Assembly (NCBI RefSeq): GCF_034479635.1
Contig: NZ_CP140153.1
Location: 2,239,501-2,303,500 of the forward strand
Source of the DNA: Guyparkeria halophila
GTDB lineage: Bacteria; Pseudomonadota; Gammaproteobacteria; Halothiobacillales; Halothiobacillaceae
Direction of reading: 5' to 3'
Length of the DNA stretch: 64,000 nt
Shown here: piece after piece, positions 2,306 to 53,463 of the stretch
Position numbering within the stretch: position 1 is the first letter of the stretch
Layout of the letters: each line of letters begins with the position of its first letter
Program-made: the position numbers and the translations under genes
The notes under the pieces: generated by a model
Told to the model about the DNA's origin: nothing
Database searches by the model: none
Seen by the model: only the letters and a program-made list of their open reading frames with translations

Positions 2306-3142
2306 CTAACTACTGGGCACGTCCGCGTCGGCCAGGTTGCGGCCATAGAAGATCTCGAACATCTCCTTTTTCAGCGCCTTCTCGATGCGGGTGCATGCCT
2401 GCGGGCTGTAATCGTCGGTGCCGTGGCCGAACAGGTAGTTGTCCAGATCGAAGTCCTTCAGGAGCATCTTGGTGTGGAAGATGTTCTCCTGATAGACGTT
2501 CACGTCGATCATCTGGTAGCGCTCGCGGGTGTCCTCGGACATGTAGTTCTGGATCGAGTTGATCTCGTGATCGATGAAGTGCTTGCCGCCGTGGATGTCA
2601 CGGGTAAAGCCGCGCACGCGGTAATCGAGCGTCACGATGTCCGAATCGAAGCTGTGGATCAGGTAGTTGAGCGCCCGCAGCGGCGAGATCCGTCCGCAGG
2701 TGGACACGTCGATATCGACCCGGAAGGTGGAGATGCCGTTTTCCGGATGGCTTTCGGGGTAGGTGTGCACGGTGATGTGGCTCTTGTCGAGGTGCGCGAC
2801 CACCGAGTCGCGCGCCAGCTCGCCATCGCCCGGCAGCGGCCCCGGCTCCTCGTGATAGTCGATGCCCTCGGCGATCACCGGCTCCTCGGAGATCAGGATG
2901 GTCACCGACGCCCCCTGCGGTTCATAGTCCTGCCGGGCGACATTGAGGATGTTCGCCCCGATCATCTCGGTGACATCCGTCAGGATCTGGGTCAGCCGGT
3001 CGGCATCGTAGACCTCGTCGATGTAGGCGATGTACTCGTTGACCTGCGCCCGGGTCTTGGCATAACAGATGTCGAAGATCGACATGCTCAGCGTCTTGCT
3101 GAGGTTGTTGAACCCGTGCAAGGTGACCGACGGCTCACCCAT
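2306..3142 (-). CDS. speD: S-adenosylmethionine decarboxylase proenzyme
   Basis: 278 residues, E. coli-type SpeD. It decarboxylates S-adenosylmethionine to supply aminopropyl groups for spermidine synthesis. The proenzyme cleaves itself before a serine to make the pyruvoyl cofactor; the site is [16 protein letters not shown]. Further conserved stretches include [19 protein letters not shown] and [15 protein letters not shown]-like sequence and [10 protein letters not shown]. The ATG at 3142 is chosen because an AGGGGG ribosome-binding site precedes it and the homologous region begins just after; an in-frame extension to 3334 is unconserved-looking. Convergent with glcF. Confidence 0.96.
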
Positions 3143-34381: not shown

Positions 34382-34837
34382 TCAGGCGGTCGGGTCTAGA
34401 TAGCTGCGGACGATATCGAGGATCTCGTTCTTGTCCTCGTCGCCGATGCCGAGGAACGGTCGGGCCGGGATCTCCTTGTAGGGGATCATGCTGTTCGCCT
34501 TGGTGATGCCGCCAAACTGCTGCATGGCGGCGTACACCTTGTTTGTGCCGGCGACGGCGTGGTCCGGTCCCCAGTCGCCGGTCACGCTGGCAGCCAGCTG
34601 GCCGGAGCGCTGGAGGATGGGGTGGGCATCGCCGCCGCGCATGCCGACGGTGGCCTCGGTCAGCGGGGCCCAGGGCGTGCCGGTGGCGGGGTCGGCCTCG
34701 TCCTGGAAGGCGCGTTCGGTGGCGTCGGTCAGCACGCCGGCGATGTCGCGCATCGCGGGCGTCAGGTTGGTCAGGCGATCGTCGAGGCGCTGTAGGGCGT
34801 TGAGTACGCTGCGGTCTTTGTAGTCGATCTCGATCAT
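34382..34837 (-). CDS. virion morphogenesis protein, Mu gpG family
   Basis: 151 residues. DIAGVLTDATERAFQDEADP, GTPWAPLTEATV, HPILQRSGQLAASV and the C-terminal IPARPFLGIGDEDKNEILDI are typical of phage virion morphogenesis proteins (Mu G, P2 S relatives). It probably acts at the head-tail joining step. Downstream, the usual neighbour gpI is displaced by the cargo module. Confidence 0.9.
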   Translation of the reverse strand: MIEIDYKDRSVLNALQRLDDRLTNLTPAMRDIAGVLTDATERAFQDEADPATGTPWAPLTEATVGMRGGDAHPILQRSGQLAASVTGDWGPDHAVAGTNKVYAAMQQFGGITKANSMIPYKEIPARPFLGIGDEDKNEILDIVRSYLDPTA

Positions 34838-34855
34838 GGGCTATCCTTTAATCAA

Positions 34856-34985
34856 GCTCTGGGCGGGTGTACCCCGATGGGCAAGGGGGTATGTCCCGGC
34901 AAGCCCAACGCCGATGATCCAGGGGCCATCGGCCGCGGGTTTGGGGCATGCGGATGTGGGTTCAAGTCCCACCCCCGCTCAGAGC
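34856..34985 (+). ncRNA. tRNA-like structured RNA candidate
   Basis: On the plus strand, 34,856-34,867 pairs with 34,974-34,985 (12 bp, one G-U). Next come a D-arm-like hairpin (34,871-34,875/34,886-34,890, loop with GGG) and a helix 34,891-34,897/34,943-34,949. The T-arm is canonical: GTGGG-TTCAAGT-CCCAC at 34,956-34,972. Instead of an anticodon loop, the third helix extends through 34,901-34,906/34,937-34,942 and ends in a 7-bp stem 34,910-34,916/34,927-34,933. No anticodon and no encoded CCA. It fills the gap between gpG and gpF and overlaps the last codons of gpF. Confidence 0.45.
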
Positions 34986-36370
34986 GCCCCATCCAACACC
35001 TGGTGTTCCCGTAGATTGATAACGGGCACCACGCGGGCCGTGTTCACCACGTTGGCCCGCACCGTTTCCTTCCCGCCTCCGGGCTTGCGCTGCCGCACAC
35101 GGTAGTCGAGTTGCACCACCAGCTTCTTTCGGTCGTCGCTGCCATGGTCATGGACCAGCAGCACGGCGGGTTGGTCGTGGGTGGTGTCCAGCAGAGCGGC
35201 CCGCGGATTTGTAAGGTGCGCGGGCAGATCCAGCAGCCAGTCGCGATCCACCCCGCCGGCTTTCTTGTCGCGCGCCATGTGGATCAGATCGTTCTCTCGC
35301 ACGGACACCACGCCGGATTCCGGCCCCATGCCCCGACGCTCCAGCGAGGCGATGACGTCGGTCGACAGCGCGCCGATGTGACGAACCCGGCCGTGCGGGC
35401 GCGGCTGGTCGGCATCGAGCCCGGCGAACACCTCCCGTGCCATCTCCTGATAGCCATCCTCGACCCCGCGCCGGACACGGTCATCGGCCAGTGCTTCCCT
35501 GGCAGCCAGCGACCCGAGCATGGCCGGCGCCTGGGCGCTGCCGGCGAGGTGCAGTTCGCCCAGGTGGGACAGCCCCGCCTGGCCGGGGTTGTAGCTCCAG
35601 CCGGCATCGGGCTTCATCAGCATGTCGCGACCGGTGGTCCGGTCGGTGTAGCGCACGGCCGTGACCGGGCGCAGGTCGGGGCTGCCGTCCGGCAGCTTGC
35701 CGGCGGGCACCTCGACGGTCTCGGTGCGCCCGGTCTCCGGGGTCAGGCCCTCGGCTTGAAGGCGGCGGTCGGAGAGTGCCCGCACCCGGCAGCGGCAGTT
35801 CCAGCCGTTGGGCGGATAGATCGAGGACCAGACGGGGTCGTCGGCGCGGTAGACGCGCCCGTGCAGGCCGGCATGCGATGGACGGGTGCGTGAGTCGCGC
35901 ACGGCAAGGTACTGCCAGTAAGGCCGGGCCCCGCTGGCGGCCATCTCTTGCTGGTGGCGATAGCGCCCGGCCATGTAGGCGGTCTGGAGGTTCTGCCGGT
36001 AGATCAGCTTGAGGCGCCACGGACTGCCCCACTGGACCGGCCGGCCGGTGGCGTCGTATGCCTCGAGCACCTCGCCGGTCTCCTTGTCGATCGCCTGGCC
36101 CCACCAGCCCTTGCGCTGGAGCGTGGGGGTGAGCTCGCGGATAAAATCCCGCTCGGTTTTCCCCTCTTTCAACGCATCTGTAAGGCCACCGTGAATGTCC
36201 TTCAGCACGTCGATCTTGGCCAGCCGCGCAACCGTGAAGGCGCGGGCGTGCTGCGCCTGCCACAGCTCGCGCCAGTCGCCGGTCAGCTTGAGGCCCTTGG
36301 CTTCGAAGTAGCGGATGGCGTCTGCCGGCGGCAGACCGATGGCATTGCCGATGCGTGGCGATTCAGGCAT
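34979..36370 (-). CDS. head morphogenesis protein gpF with C-terminal nuclease-like domain
   Basis: 463 residues from the ATG at 36,370. The N-terminal part is the Mu F/SPP1 gp7 minor head domain: LKLIYRQNLQTAYMAGRYRH, YLAVRDSRTRPSHAGLHGRV and IYPPNGWNCRCRVRALSD. The last 140 residues (HIGALSTDVIASLERRG; DRDWLLDLPAHLTNPRA; VNTARVVPVINLREHQV) resemble the phage-barnase-EndoU-colicin-RelE (PBECR) nuclease domains known to be fused to gpF; that assignment is tentative. Overlaps the portal stop by 8 bp. Confidence 0.88.
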   Translation of the reverse strand: MPESPRIGNAIGLPPADAIRYFEAKGLKLTGDWRELWQAQHARAFTVARLAKIDVLKDIHGGLTDALKEGKTERDFIRELTPTLQRKGWWGQAIDKETGEVLEAYDATGRPVQWGSPWRLKLIYRQNLQTAYMAGRYRHQQEMAASGARPYWQYLAVRDSRTRPSHAGLHGRVYRADDPVWSSIYPPNGWNCRCRVRALSDRRLQAEGLTPETGRTETVEVPAGKLPDGSPDLRPVTAVRYTDRTTGRDMLMKPDAGWSYNPGQAGLSHLGELHLAGSAQAPAMLGSLAAREALADDRVRRGVEDGYQEMAREVFAGLDADQPRPHGRVRHIGALSTDVIASLERRGMGPESGVVSVRENDLIHMARDKKAGGVDRDWLLDLPAHLTNPRAALLDTTHDQPAVLLVHDHGSDDRKKLVVQLDYRVRQRKPGGGKETVRANVVNTARVVPVINLREHQVLDGAL

Positions 36371-37955
36371 CCCGCTCGGCCTCCTGTTGCGCCTCGAGGC
36401 GGCCGGCCAGTTCGGCGGCGAACATGGCACGGGCGAGCGCCTCGGTCAGGTCGGACGGGTCGGTGTCCGGGTACTGGTCCGCGAGTCGGGCGATGATCTC
36501 CTCGGGGGTCAGGCCCTCGTCGAGGGCGTCGACCATGGGGCGGATGATCTGTTGCGCCTGGTCGTGCTGGCCGGGCTGGTCGACCTCGGCGATCTCGTCC
36601 TGCAAATCGGCCGCTTCCGGCTGGGCTGCCAGCGCGGCGCGGCGCTCGCCCCGGCATCCGTCACAGCTGCACCCCTGCCCATGCGTCGCGCGCATGGCGG
36701 CCGCCGGCAGGCTGCCCGGCCGCTCGAGGATCGGCTCGTCGTCCGCTGGCGCCGGGATCCGCAGCTTGTCGTGGACCCACGACTGCGGGATCCGCACGCC
36801 GGCGTCGACCAGCTTCGACAGGCTCTGGGAGAGCGCGCCCATGTCTTCGTTGTCGGCCACGTCGAAGTAGAACTGCGGCACCGCCTTGAGCCCGGTATTC
36901 AGGCGCGCCAGCGGGGTGACCAGGTCACGGGTGAGCGTGCGGGCGATCAGGCGCAGGTCGGCGCGCATGATGTCGCTGCGTACCTCGTCGTGGGTCTGGG
37001 CCGCGGCATAGCTGCCCTTGCCGTCCACCTGGCTGGTGAGCGTGCCGCCCAGGATCGCCTTGCTGATCGACTGCTCGGCCCAGCGGACCATGGCGAGGAA
37101 CGGATCGGCGGCACCACGGGCGGCTTCCTGAAACTCGATTTCCATGCCCTGCGGCAGGATGCCGGCGGCGTTGTGGCCGATGCTGACCACCGCCTGCATC
37201 AGGGTGGACTTCTCGTCGTCGGTAGCCCCACGGGGATACCGGCCGACGCGCAGTGGCAGGCCGTAGATTTCCAGGAACTCGGCGAAGTCGCGGGTGCTCA
37301 AGGCCCGGAACAGGAACGGCCAGCCGAGCACGCGCACCAGCCCGGCACGCGTCAGGTACCCGGACTTGGCCGGGTGGTGGTGGACGATCCAGCCCCATGG
37401 GCGCAATGCCTCGCCACCGGCGGCGGTGGTCCGCAGGCGCAGGGTGTCCCGATCCTCTGGGGTGACCATGAACCAGTCGGCCGGCCGGGCGTGCGGCTCG
37501 GCACGCCACTGGCCTTCGGACTGCTCCCATTCCAGCTCGATGCCGGCATAGCCCGGCAGGATGGCGCCGGCCAGATCGAGGATCAGTTGGTCGATGTCCA
37601 TCTCCTCGCGGAGCATGGCCTCCAGTTCCTCGGTCGCTTTCTGGTCGGCCGCGCTGGCACCCCGGGGCGCGCGCAGTCCCCAGTCGACCGTGAGGGTGGC
37701 CAACTGGCGCTTGCTCATCTCGGCGAGCAGGTGGGCGTCCTTCTCCTGCATGTCCTCGGCGAGACGCGCCTGGGCGGTGAGATCGCCGCCCTCGGCATCC
37801 TCGTACAGACGGGCGAGCTTCGCCGGGGTCAGGCCGCGCGTGGGGTGGTCCGCCAGCTCGCGGTGCAGGCTGGCCATGCGCGCGGTCTGTGGTTCGCGCG
37901 CCAGTTTGCGCGGCGAGATGGGGGCACCGTCAGGACCGAGAATCGAATTCGCCAT
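36363..37955 (-). CDS. portal protein, Mu gp29 family (DUF935)
   Basis: 530 residues. The start MANSILGPDGAPISPRKLAR and later GWPFLFRALSTRDFAEFLEI, YGLPLRVGRYPRGATDDEKS, QSISKAILGGTLTSQ are diagnostic of DUF935 portals. The dodecameric portal forms the DNA entry vertex and docks the terminase encoded just upstream. A CxCxxC cluster (GCSCDGCRGERRA) near residue 435 may bind a metal. Confidence 0.93.
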   Translation of the reverse strand: MANSILGPDGAPISPRKLAREPQTARMASLHRELADHPTRGLTPAKLARLYEDAEGGDLTAQARLAEDMQEKDAHLLAEMSKRQLATLTVDWGLRAPRGASAADQKATEELEAMLREEMDIDQLILDLAGAILPGYAGIELEWEQSEGQWRAEPHARPADWFMVTPEDRDTLRLRTTAAGGEALRPWGWIVHHHPAKSGYLTRAGLVRVLGWPFLFRALSTRDFAEFLEIYGLPLRVGRYPRGATDDEKSTLMQAVVSIGHNAAGILPQGMEIEFQEAARGAADPFLAMVRWAEQSISKAILGGTLTSQVDGKGSYAAAQTHDEVRSDIMRADLRLIARTLTRDLVTPLARLNTGLKAVPQFYFDVADNEDMGALSQSLSKLVDAGVRIPQSWVHDKLRIPAPADDEPILERPGSLPAAAMRATHGQGCSCDGCRGERRAALAAQPEAADLQDEIAEVDQPGQHDQAQQIIRPMVDALDEGLTPEEIIARLADQYPDTDPSDLTEALARAMFAAELAGRLEAQQEAERDA

Positions 37956-53370: not shown

Positions 53371-53463
53371 TGGCGGAGAGAGAGGGATTCGAACCCTCGA
53401 AGGGGCTATAAACCCCTTACTCCCTTAGCAGGGGAGCGCCTTCAGCCACTCGGCCACCTCTCC
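53371..53463 (-). tRNA. tRNA-Ser (anticodon GCU)
   Basis: 93-nt tRNA with encoded CCA. Minus strand starts GGAGAGGTGGCCGAGTGGCT. The anticodon arm CTCCC-CTGCTAA-GGGAG gives anticodon GCU. A long variable arm typical of type II serine tRNAs (AAGGGGTTTATAGCCCCTT) is present, and the T-arm carries GGGTTCGAATCCC. It reads codons AGC and AGU. Confidence 0.97.

Follow-up and report, generated by a model that had tools for sequence, protein, structure and literature searches.

A tRNA-shaped RNA at the end of the MuF gene in Mu-like phages, a candidate immunity factor for the MuF C-terminal domain

Introduction

In type III toxin-antitoxin systems the antitoxin is an RNA of tandem repeats, encoded upstream of the toxin and carried with it on one transcript. 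For the MuF proteins, described as polymorphic toxins, the survey of Jamet et al. 2017 (PMC5576092) reports that a small open reading frame (ORF), presumed to encode immunity, follows the gene in 89.4% of 191 cases. Orthologs of the Mu MuF protein are credited in PMC5512222 with predicted active PBECR RNase domains, Mu's own being called inactive, and the characterised BECR CdiA-CT toxins are given as tRNases, with one exception, in PMC9086364. The present work concerns a tRNA-shaped RNA element lying antisense to a phage late operon, between the genes gpG and gpF (MuF), in a stretch of 64,000 nucleotides of the Guyparkeria halophila genome (contig NZ_CP140153.1, positions 2,239,501 to 2,303,500), hereafter the window.

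We propose, with moderate confidence and from sequence comparison, that this RNA is an immunity factor (antitoxin), a tRNA mimic that would neutralise the nuclease domain at the C terminus of the MuF protein encoded by the same phage. With an immunity gene expected directly after that of a MuF toxin (PMC5576092), and with the RNA found in that slot tracking the intact domain, RNA immunity by target mimicry is the simplest account.

Results

Structure of the element and of its family

On folding, the plus strand of 34856-34985 reached -72.3 kcal/mol, where dinucleotide shuffles gave -59.2 +/- 3.8 (z -3.43, 0/200); in the same test the minus strand had z -2.71 (4/200). The first-pass annotation had described, on the plus strand and antisense to the late operon, a tRNA-like fold in the gap between gpG and gpF, made of a 12-bp stem, a D-arm-like hairpin, a long third arm without anticodon and a T-arm whose loop is TTCAAGT. 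The fold and the gene coordinates bear out each part of this description: the third arm consists of helices of 10, 5 and 7 bp closed by a 10-nt loop, no anticodon is present, and 141 bp separate gpG from gpF. The parts of the element and its two neighbours are as follows.

34856..34985, plus strand: tRNA-shaped RNA, entire element (fold; covariation among relatives; 76.9 bits with model R1, the window sequence being in R1's own building set)
34856..34867, plus strand: 12-nt 5' strand of the acceptor-like stem; a bulged U (34868) comes next, and G34869 pairs with C34973
34872..34888, plus strand: D-arm-like hairpin, stem CCCC/GGGG, loop GATGGGCAA (fold, family alignment)
34889..34952, plus strand: third arm, longer than in any other family member, with three stacked helices replacing the anticodon arm
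34956..34972, plus strand: T-arm GTGGG TTCAAGT CCCAC (fold, family, covariation)
34974..34985, plus strand: acceptor-like stem, 3' strand; 34979-34985 are the last 7 nt of gpF, with the gpF stop codon at 34979-34981
34979..36430, minus strand: gpF, MuF head protein (Pfam PF04233, Phage_Mu_F, 1e-25)
34382..34837, minus strand: gpG, virion morphogenesis protein, the next late-operon gene (Pfam PF05069, Phage_tail_S, 1.9e-34)

ARAGORN called no tRNA at the element, and Rfam gave no match at gathering score; below threshold came YrlA with 17.3 bits (cut-off 69), on which identity with YrlA or Y RNA was rejected, and the tmRNA T-arm with 9.8 bits. A single BLAST match in the host genome rules out spread of the window copy within the host.

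Among 27 genomes from the same order, DNA searching turned up a single clear relative (L039, in genome G023), which resembles the window element in its D- and T-arms, carries compensatory stem changes and has a different third-arm sequence. A D-arm pattern matched 22 viral contigs and, within the class, 3 of 369 genomes, one of which is the window's own; with a looser pattern, named genomes yielded 40 stretches (Rhodobacterales, Rhodocyclaceae, Burkholderiaceae, Symbiobacter, Tepidimonas, Competibacteraceae and others). The 15 viral stretches returned by a relaxed T-arm-side pattern were all already known, adding no new loci, and DNA BLAST against annotated phages found no family members. Once one false hit had been removed (L070, in which the acceptor stem is absent, was excluded as a false member), the family counted 66 places with 59 distinct sequences; L040, whose T-arm is offset by one base in the extracted piece, was left out of alignment A3. 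A second subtype (type 2), with D-arm TGTTTCCAATGGGAATGG, was found in 18 viral stretches. Two or three tRNA-shaped elements of different subtypes lie close together in L043 (826-1001), L084 (5264-6743), L092/L095 and L101.

Over 58 sequences, 85.5% of cells pair and both sides change in 23 of 28 pairs, giving a covariation score of 0.494 against 0.194 in shuffled alignments (0/500) and at most 0.141 in slid ones; compensatory change is strong in each of the four arms. The covariation check in relatives that the first-pass annotation had asked for was therefore strongly positive, and chance folding is ruled out by this result together with the shuffle test. The D-loop GATGGG.AA is common to 59/59 distinct members, though it was part of the search patterns; as members were collected by their D- and T-arms, loop conservation is partly built in and stem covariation is not. 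The family T-loop reads TTCRANT, and the D-loop and T-loop consensus, with matching covarying stems, is that of a tRNA. The anticodon arm is a variable hairpin, the third arm varying freely, and CCA near the 3' end occurs in only 3 of 59 members, a conserved CCA end being absent. Members scored 54-91 bits with R1, which was built from them, and ordinary tRNAs at most 41.9 in the 11 loci checked; on this gap, a real tRNA with a lost anticodon was rejected as a full account. The Rfam tRNA model (RF00005) reached its cut-off at the element's place in 2 of 12 loci. ARAGORN labels L045, L046, L048-L051, L053-L056, L058, L059 and L064 as tRNAs with odd or undefined anticodons (L048 as tmRNA), and given these calls annotations may carry family members under tRNA or tmRNA names. 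As judged from its sequences, the family is a real structured RNA, tRNA-shaped and encoded on the plus strand, of which a literature search found no published description.

The assignment to the plus strand follows from the excess of G-U over A-C (48 cells against 10 over the 18 core pairs in 59 sequences, the cells being non-independent); likewise, the tRNA loop sequences read correctly on the plus strand alone, as had been noticed earlier for the T-loop. Lying just upstream of the G ribosome-binding site, the element could conceivably act on the minus strand as part of the F-G mRNA, by coupling translation or by affecting the processing or stability of the message. This is scarcely credible in view of the wobble pairs, the loop sequences and the copies in which the orientation to the neighbouring genes is reversed.

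Genomic place of the RNA

In Mu-like phages, the usual place of the RNA is antisense between F (MuF) and G, with its 3' arm over the MuF stop codon. At 26 of the 67 listed places, a minus-strand gene common to 3 or more loci ends precisely 7 nt into the RNA; in the window this gene is gpF. Direct BLAST relatives of the window gpF end antisense at the RNA in 34 of 59 distinct type-1 places and in 16 of 20 type-2 places. In a second context, termed B, the RNA lies in sense with its neighbours between GemA and gpT (L054, Pfam-tested; L051, L057, L061, L083 and L104, from BLAST neighbours).

The antisense position, the overlap with the MuF stop codon and the promoter-like sequence described below would suit an antisense regulator that damps expression of F or of the portal in lysogeny, be it through the RNA or through plus-strand transcription at the F/G junction. 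We consider this improbable, for the copies of context B are in sense, what is conserved is a tRNA-like elbow with its stems and no stretch complementary to mRNA, and the joint loss with the MuF domain motif would be left unexplained. The sense copies and the freely varying third arm also make the processing signal, offered in the first-pass annotation beside the antisense regulator, less likely.

Other observations concern the surroundings of single copies. The L039 member (2365-2488, minus strand), on a contig in which no phage genes were seen, precedes a Type IIG restriction-methylase gene by 160 nt, and the L075 member likewise adjoins a Type IIG restriction gene. By eye, the members of L064, L087 and L101 stand amid small genes resembling toxin-antitoxin genes. 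In L054, L057, L061, L062, L077, L086 and L088, a conserved stretch on the other strand (GREN..VSRL) is found near the RNA 3' end in both contexts.

Association of the RNA with the MuF C-terminal domain

A scan of viral contigs with the MuF alignment gave 541 confirmed relatives, of which the best 80 were analysed. The slot behind F held an R1 match in 32 of these 80 loci, antisense in all of them and weak in two (15.3 bits, E = 1), and wherever the C-terminal score was at least 194 the match was present (25/25 loci). For clustering of the C-terminal domains, six of the 80 loci were dropped as cut or short. Cluster 1 (49 loci) comprised 32 loci with RNA of class T, 1 with T?, 6 with class III, 7 without slot and 3 others, one of which (L158) is class III-like by eye. 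Class III RNA, with an outer stem and hairpins and often a TATAAT-like box, occupies the same antisense slot (L158, L160, L153, L178, L179, L187, L203). In cluster 2 (12 loci), the slot holds RNA of class IV in 11 of 12, the element TTTCGGACGT following the MuF stop in L196-L199, L201, L205, L206, L208, L219, L224 and L226. A cluster of 4 (L207, L209, L210, L218) has in the slot a conserved small ORF of 55-57 codons, possibly an immunity protein. Comparison of the two MuF domain clusters by hhalign did not support kinship (probability 0.3%).

Within 49 distinct cluster-1 domains, the window and L002 included, the slot was occupied in 41 and empty in 0 when the basic motif of the domain was present, and occupied in 1 and empty in 7 when it was absent (p = 9e-8); for the Lys alone, the slot was occupied or absent in 40/1 domains that have it and in 2/6 that do not. 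The sole occupied slot without motif is that of L171, in whose domain this part is affected by a deletion. The seven no-slot loci include the near-copies L200 and L202, which leaves about six independent ones, and on the N-terminal tree the no-slot label takes 5 changes, of which well-supported branches force 3.

Pairs of close relatives give the same picture. The closest phage relative found, L002, is 91% identical to the window in gpG and 92% in the N part of MuF; its F stop overlaps the G start with no gap or slot, its 37,498-base record has no R1 match, and in its MuF the His and Lys of the window are replaced by Asp and Met. L191 and L203 share 92% identity in the MuF N part and 21% in the last 130 residues, and their RNA classes are T and III respectively. 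L160 and L177 are 79% identical in the N part and 47% at the C-terminal end, with class III RNA in the former and no slot in the latter. Ten cultured phages were also checked, out of 260-284 records with a match. B3 and AFS-2018a keep all six residues DHRDKN, with a slot of 123 nt in the former and 124 nt in the latter, whereas residues are altered and the slot is missing in JBD67 (of B3's genus), MP38 and UMP151; MuF is short and the slot absent in YPCBV-1 and ThpS-P1, RC1 has a different domain and a 66 nt slot, and in TJ1 and KS10 F lies at the record end, so that the slot is not assessable. The RNA candidates in the B3 and AFS-2018a slots rest on place and a promoter-like TATAGT, to which a T-arm seen by eye is added in AFS-2018a. 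Taken together, comparison of the loci indicates that the RNA has been gained, lost and exchanged jointly with the MuF C-terminal domain.

Such joint inheritance would suit any binding partner of a head protein, so that the C-terminal domain might instead bind a structural or packaging RNA for head assembly or DNA injection without being toxic; RNA binding is suggested for Mu's inactive domain in PMC5512222. Since L002, L177 and JBD67 do without RNA once the motif is lost, which points to catalysis rather than structure, this possibility is slight, slighter than that of an antisense regulator.

Promoter-like sequence upstream of the RNA

Most members probably have their own sigma70-like promoter just upstream, as suggested by scoring with sigma70-like hexamer weights. 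Of the upstream regions, 53 of 74 scored at least 6 bits for a -35/-10 pair; the same level was reached by 12.3% of mononucleotide shuffles and, on the opposite strand, by 6/74 regions. In the window, the -10 hexamer begins 14 nt ahead of the first paired base.

34818..34847, plus strand: predicted promoter, TTGTAG (34818-34823), 18 nt, TATCCT (34842-34847), 6.9 bits

Nature of the MuF C-terminal domain

The gpF domain concerned is nuclease-like, and its AlphaFold models are confident, with predicted local distance difference test (pLDDT) values of 92.3 and 91.3.

34979..35611, minus strand: C-terminal domain of MuF, last 210 residues, putative nuclease (alignments; AlphaFold pLDDT 92.3)

In the alignments, H384, R387, D415, K436 and N460 of gpF are near-invariant. 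H384, just N-terminal of R387, sits in the predicted N-terminal helix and may well be catalytic. Among the matches listed by a structural aligner, the best was BrnT (Z 4.9 for the whole model and 5.4 for the core, 76/77 residues; below 8), followed, for the whole model, by the CDI (contact-dependent inhibition) toxin 6cp9 (Z 3.3) and, for the core, by an MqsR-MqsA entry (Z 3.6). The alignment A5 gave nothing below E 0.36 against PDB sequences.

Other structured RNAs of the window

Elsewhere in the window, on the minus strand, 8249-8382 matches the Rfam TwoAYGGAY RNA (64.2 bits) and 53371-53463 is a tRNA-Ser (gct) according to both ARAGORN and Rfam.

Discussion

The proposal of an RNA immunity factor starts from what comparison of the loci brings out, namely the fold of the RNA, its strand, its place and its joint gain, loss and exchange with the domain. 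A small stable RNA, mimic of the tRNA elbow, would be made from its own sigma70-type promoter opposite the late genes. The MuF head protein would presumably be packaged and injected with its nuclease domain, and in lysogens or producing cells the RNA would bind that domain and keep it off real tRNAs. Expression in the lysogen, nuclease activity and toxicity, binding and neutralisation are steps that we infer.

Several points weigh against this proposal, the chief difficulty being RNA copies in genomes that have no such MuF. The alignment A6 found no match in the context-B genomes G404-G408, and A5 gave no match in 17 of 20 genomes or records searched, some of which are short fragments; with no such MuF around them, the context-B copies would have to be orphan immunity genes. 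As for the association itself, the motif was defined post hoc, after inspection of the sequences, and a first, less sensitive expression of it gave 36/1 and 6/6 (p = 4e-4). Since most of the loci used to build A5 and A6 carry the RNA, the association of slot and domain is partly shared descent. Pairing is also not one-to-one, the 'RH' subclass of domains being found with class III (7), T (6; L172, L174, L180, L185, L188 and L194) and T? (1). On the side of the protein, the nuclease fold is putative, Foldseek giving no significant matches for the domain models, the best aligner match staying under Z 8, and Pfam PBECR3 and MuF_C matching the domain below cut-off only. The ten cultured-phage loci gave no R1 matches, and the slots of B3 and AFS-2018a fold no better than shuffles (z -0.90 and -0.46). 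Finally, strand-specific RNA-seq of a lysogen of Fc02, a relative of B3 that may or may not have the slot, is reported in PMC9936078 to detect, before induction, transcription of the regulation region alone.

The orphan copies also speak for a host decoy: the RNA would sequester either a tRNA-processing enzyme or a defence enzyme of the host that cuts tRNAs, and the link with MuF would reflect shared descent of adjacent modules. Mimicry of the tRNA elbow without anticodon or conserved CCA end agrees with it, as does the position of the L039 copy ahead of its restriction gene. We nevertheless hold it unlikely, given that RNA and intact domain are lost together and are exchanged together between such close MuF relatives as L191 and L203, and given that a different RNA class fills the slot in the second cluster of MuF domains. 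The decoy suggested in the first-pass annotation survives in part: it comes close to the tRNA mimic favoured here, and a decoy for host enzymes is kept only as a rival. More generally, the earlier reading was right as to a structured tRNA-like RNA on the plus strand, and missed the large family, the promoter-like sequence and the link with the MuF domain.

The RNA immunity factor may be one case of a wider arrangement, which in our estimate has an even chance of being correct. Exchangeable MuF nuclease domains would each have a cognate structured RNA, antisense at the toxin stop and with its own promoter, tRNA-shaped in one large group and of other folds elsewhere, neutralisation would proceed by mimicry of the tRNA target, and orphan copies in phages and chromosomes would be resistance genes. 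If the immunity proposal is true, it provides RNA-based immunity to a polymorphic toxin, of which the literature search found no published report, as well as a concrete role for the long-puzzling MuF C-terminal domain, and it suggests that a toxin's RNA antidote can reveal the toxin's cleavage target. In addition, the tRNA-shaped family accounts for odd tRNA predictions in Mu-like phages and adds an RNA family not matched in Rfam at gathering score here.

Among known systems, the MuF polymorphic toxins as set out in PMC5576092 are alike in their N-terminal MuF domain (PF04233), in an exchangeable C-terminal domain, as in the pair L191/L203, and in a presumed immunity factor immediately downstream; they differ in that small proteins are proposed there for the slot which here holds a structured antisense RNA. 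With PBECR (PMC5512222; PF18812), the domain shares its location C-terminal to MuF, a His in a helix and an alcohol residue in a late strand, Mu gp30 being called inactive there, whereas Pfam matches are here weak or under the curated cut-off. The BECR tRNase CDI toxins and BrnT (PMC9086364; PDB 6cp9, 3u97) head the aligner lists for the domain model, yet with Z below 8, and their immunity is provided by protein. Compared with ToxIN and its type III relatives, the RNA would similarly neutralise a nuclease toxin, according to the present proposal, but it is a single tRNA-shaped element free of repeats, with its own predicted promoter, on the opposite strand and downstream of the gene. As regards tRNA, tmRNA and YrlA, the cloverleaf and the D-arm and T-arm loops are alike, while the anticodon and a conserved CCA are absent, the third arm measures 18-67 nt and the acceptor stem, often longer than 7 bp, has a bulged U; the window element in particular has neither a 7-nt anticodon loop nor CCA on a 7-bp acceptor stem, its stem being of 12 bp. 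Should the RNA prove a plain RNA antitoxin, it would count as a variant of that kind rather than as a new one; its anatomy being neither that of a tRNA nor that of a type III antitoxin, the RNA is rated here as a new kind.
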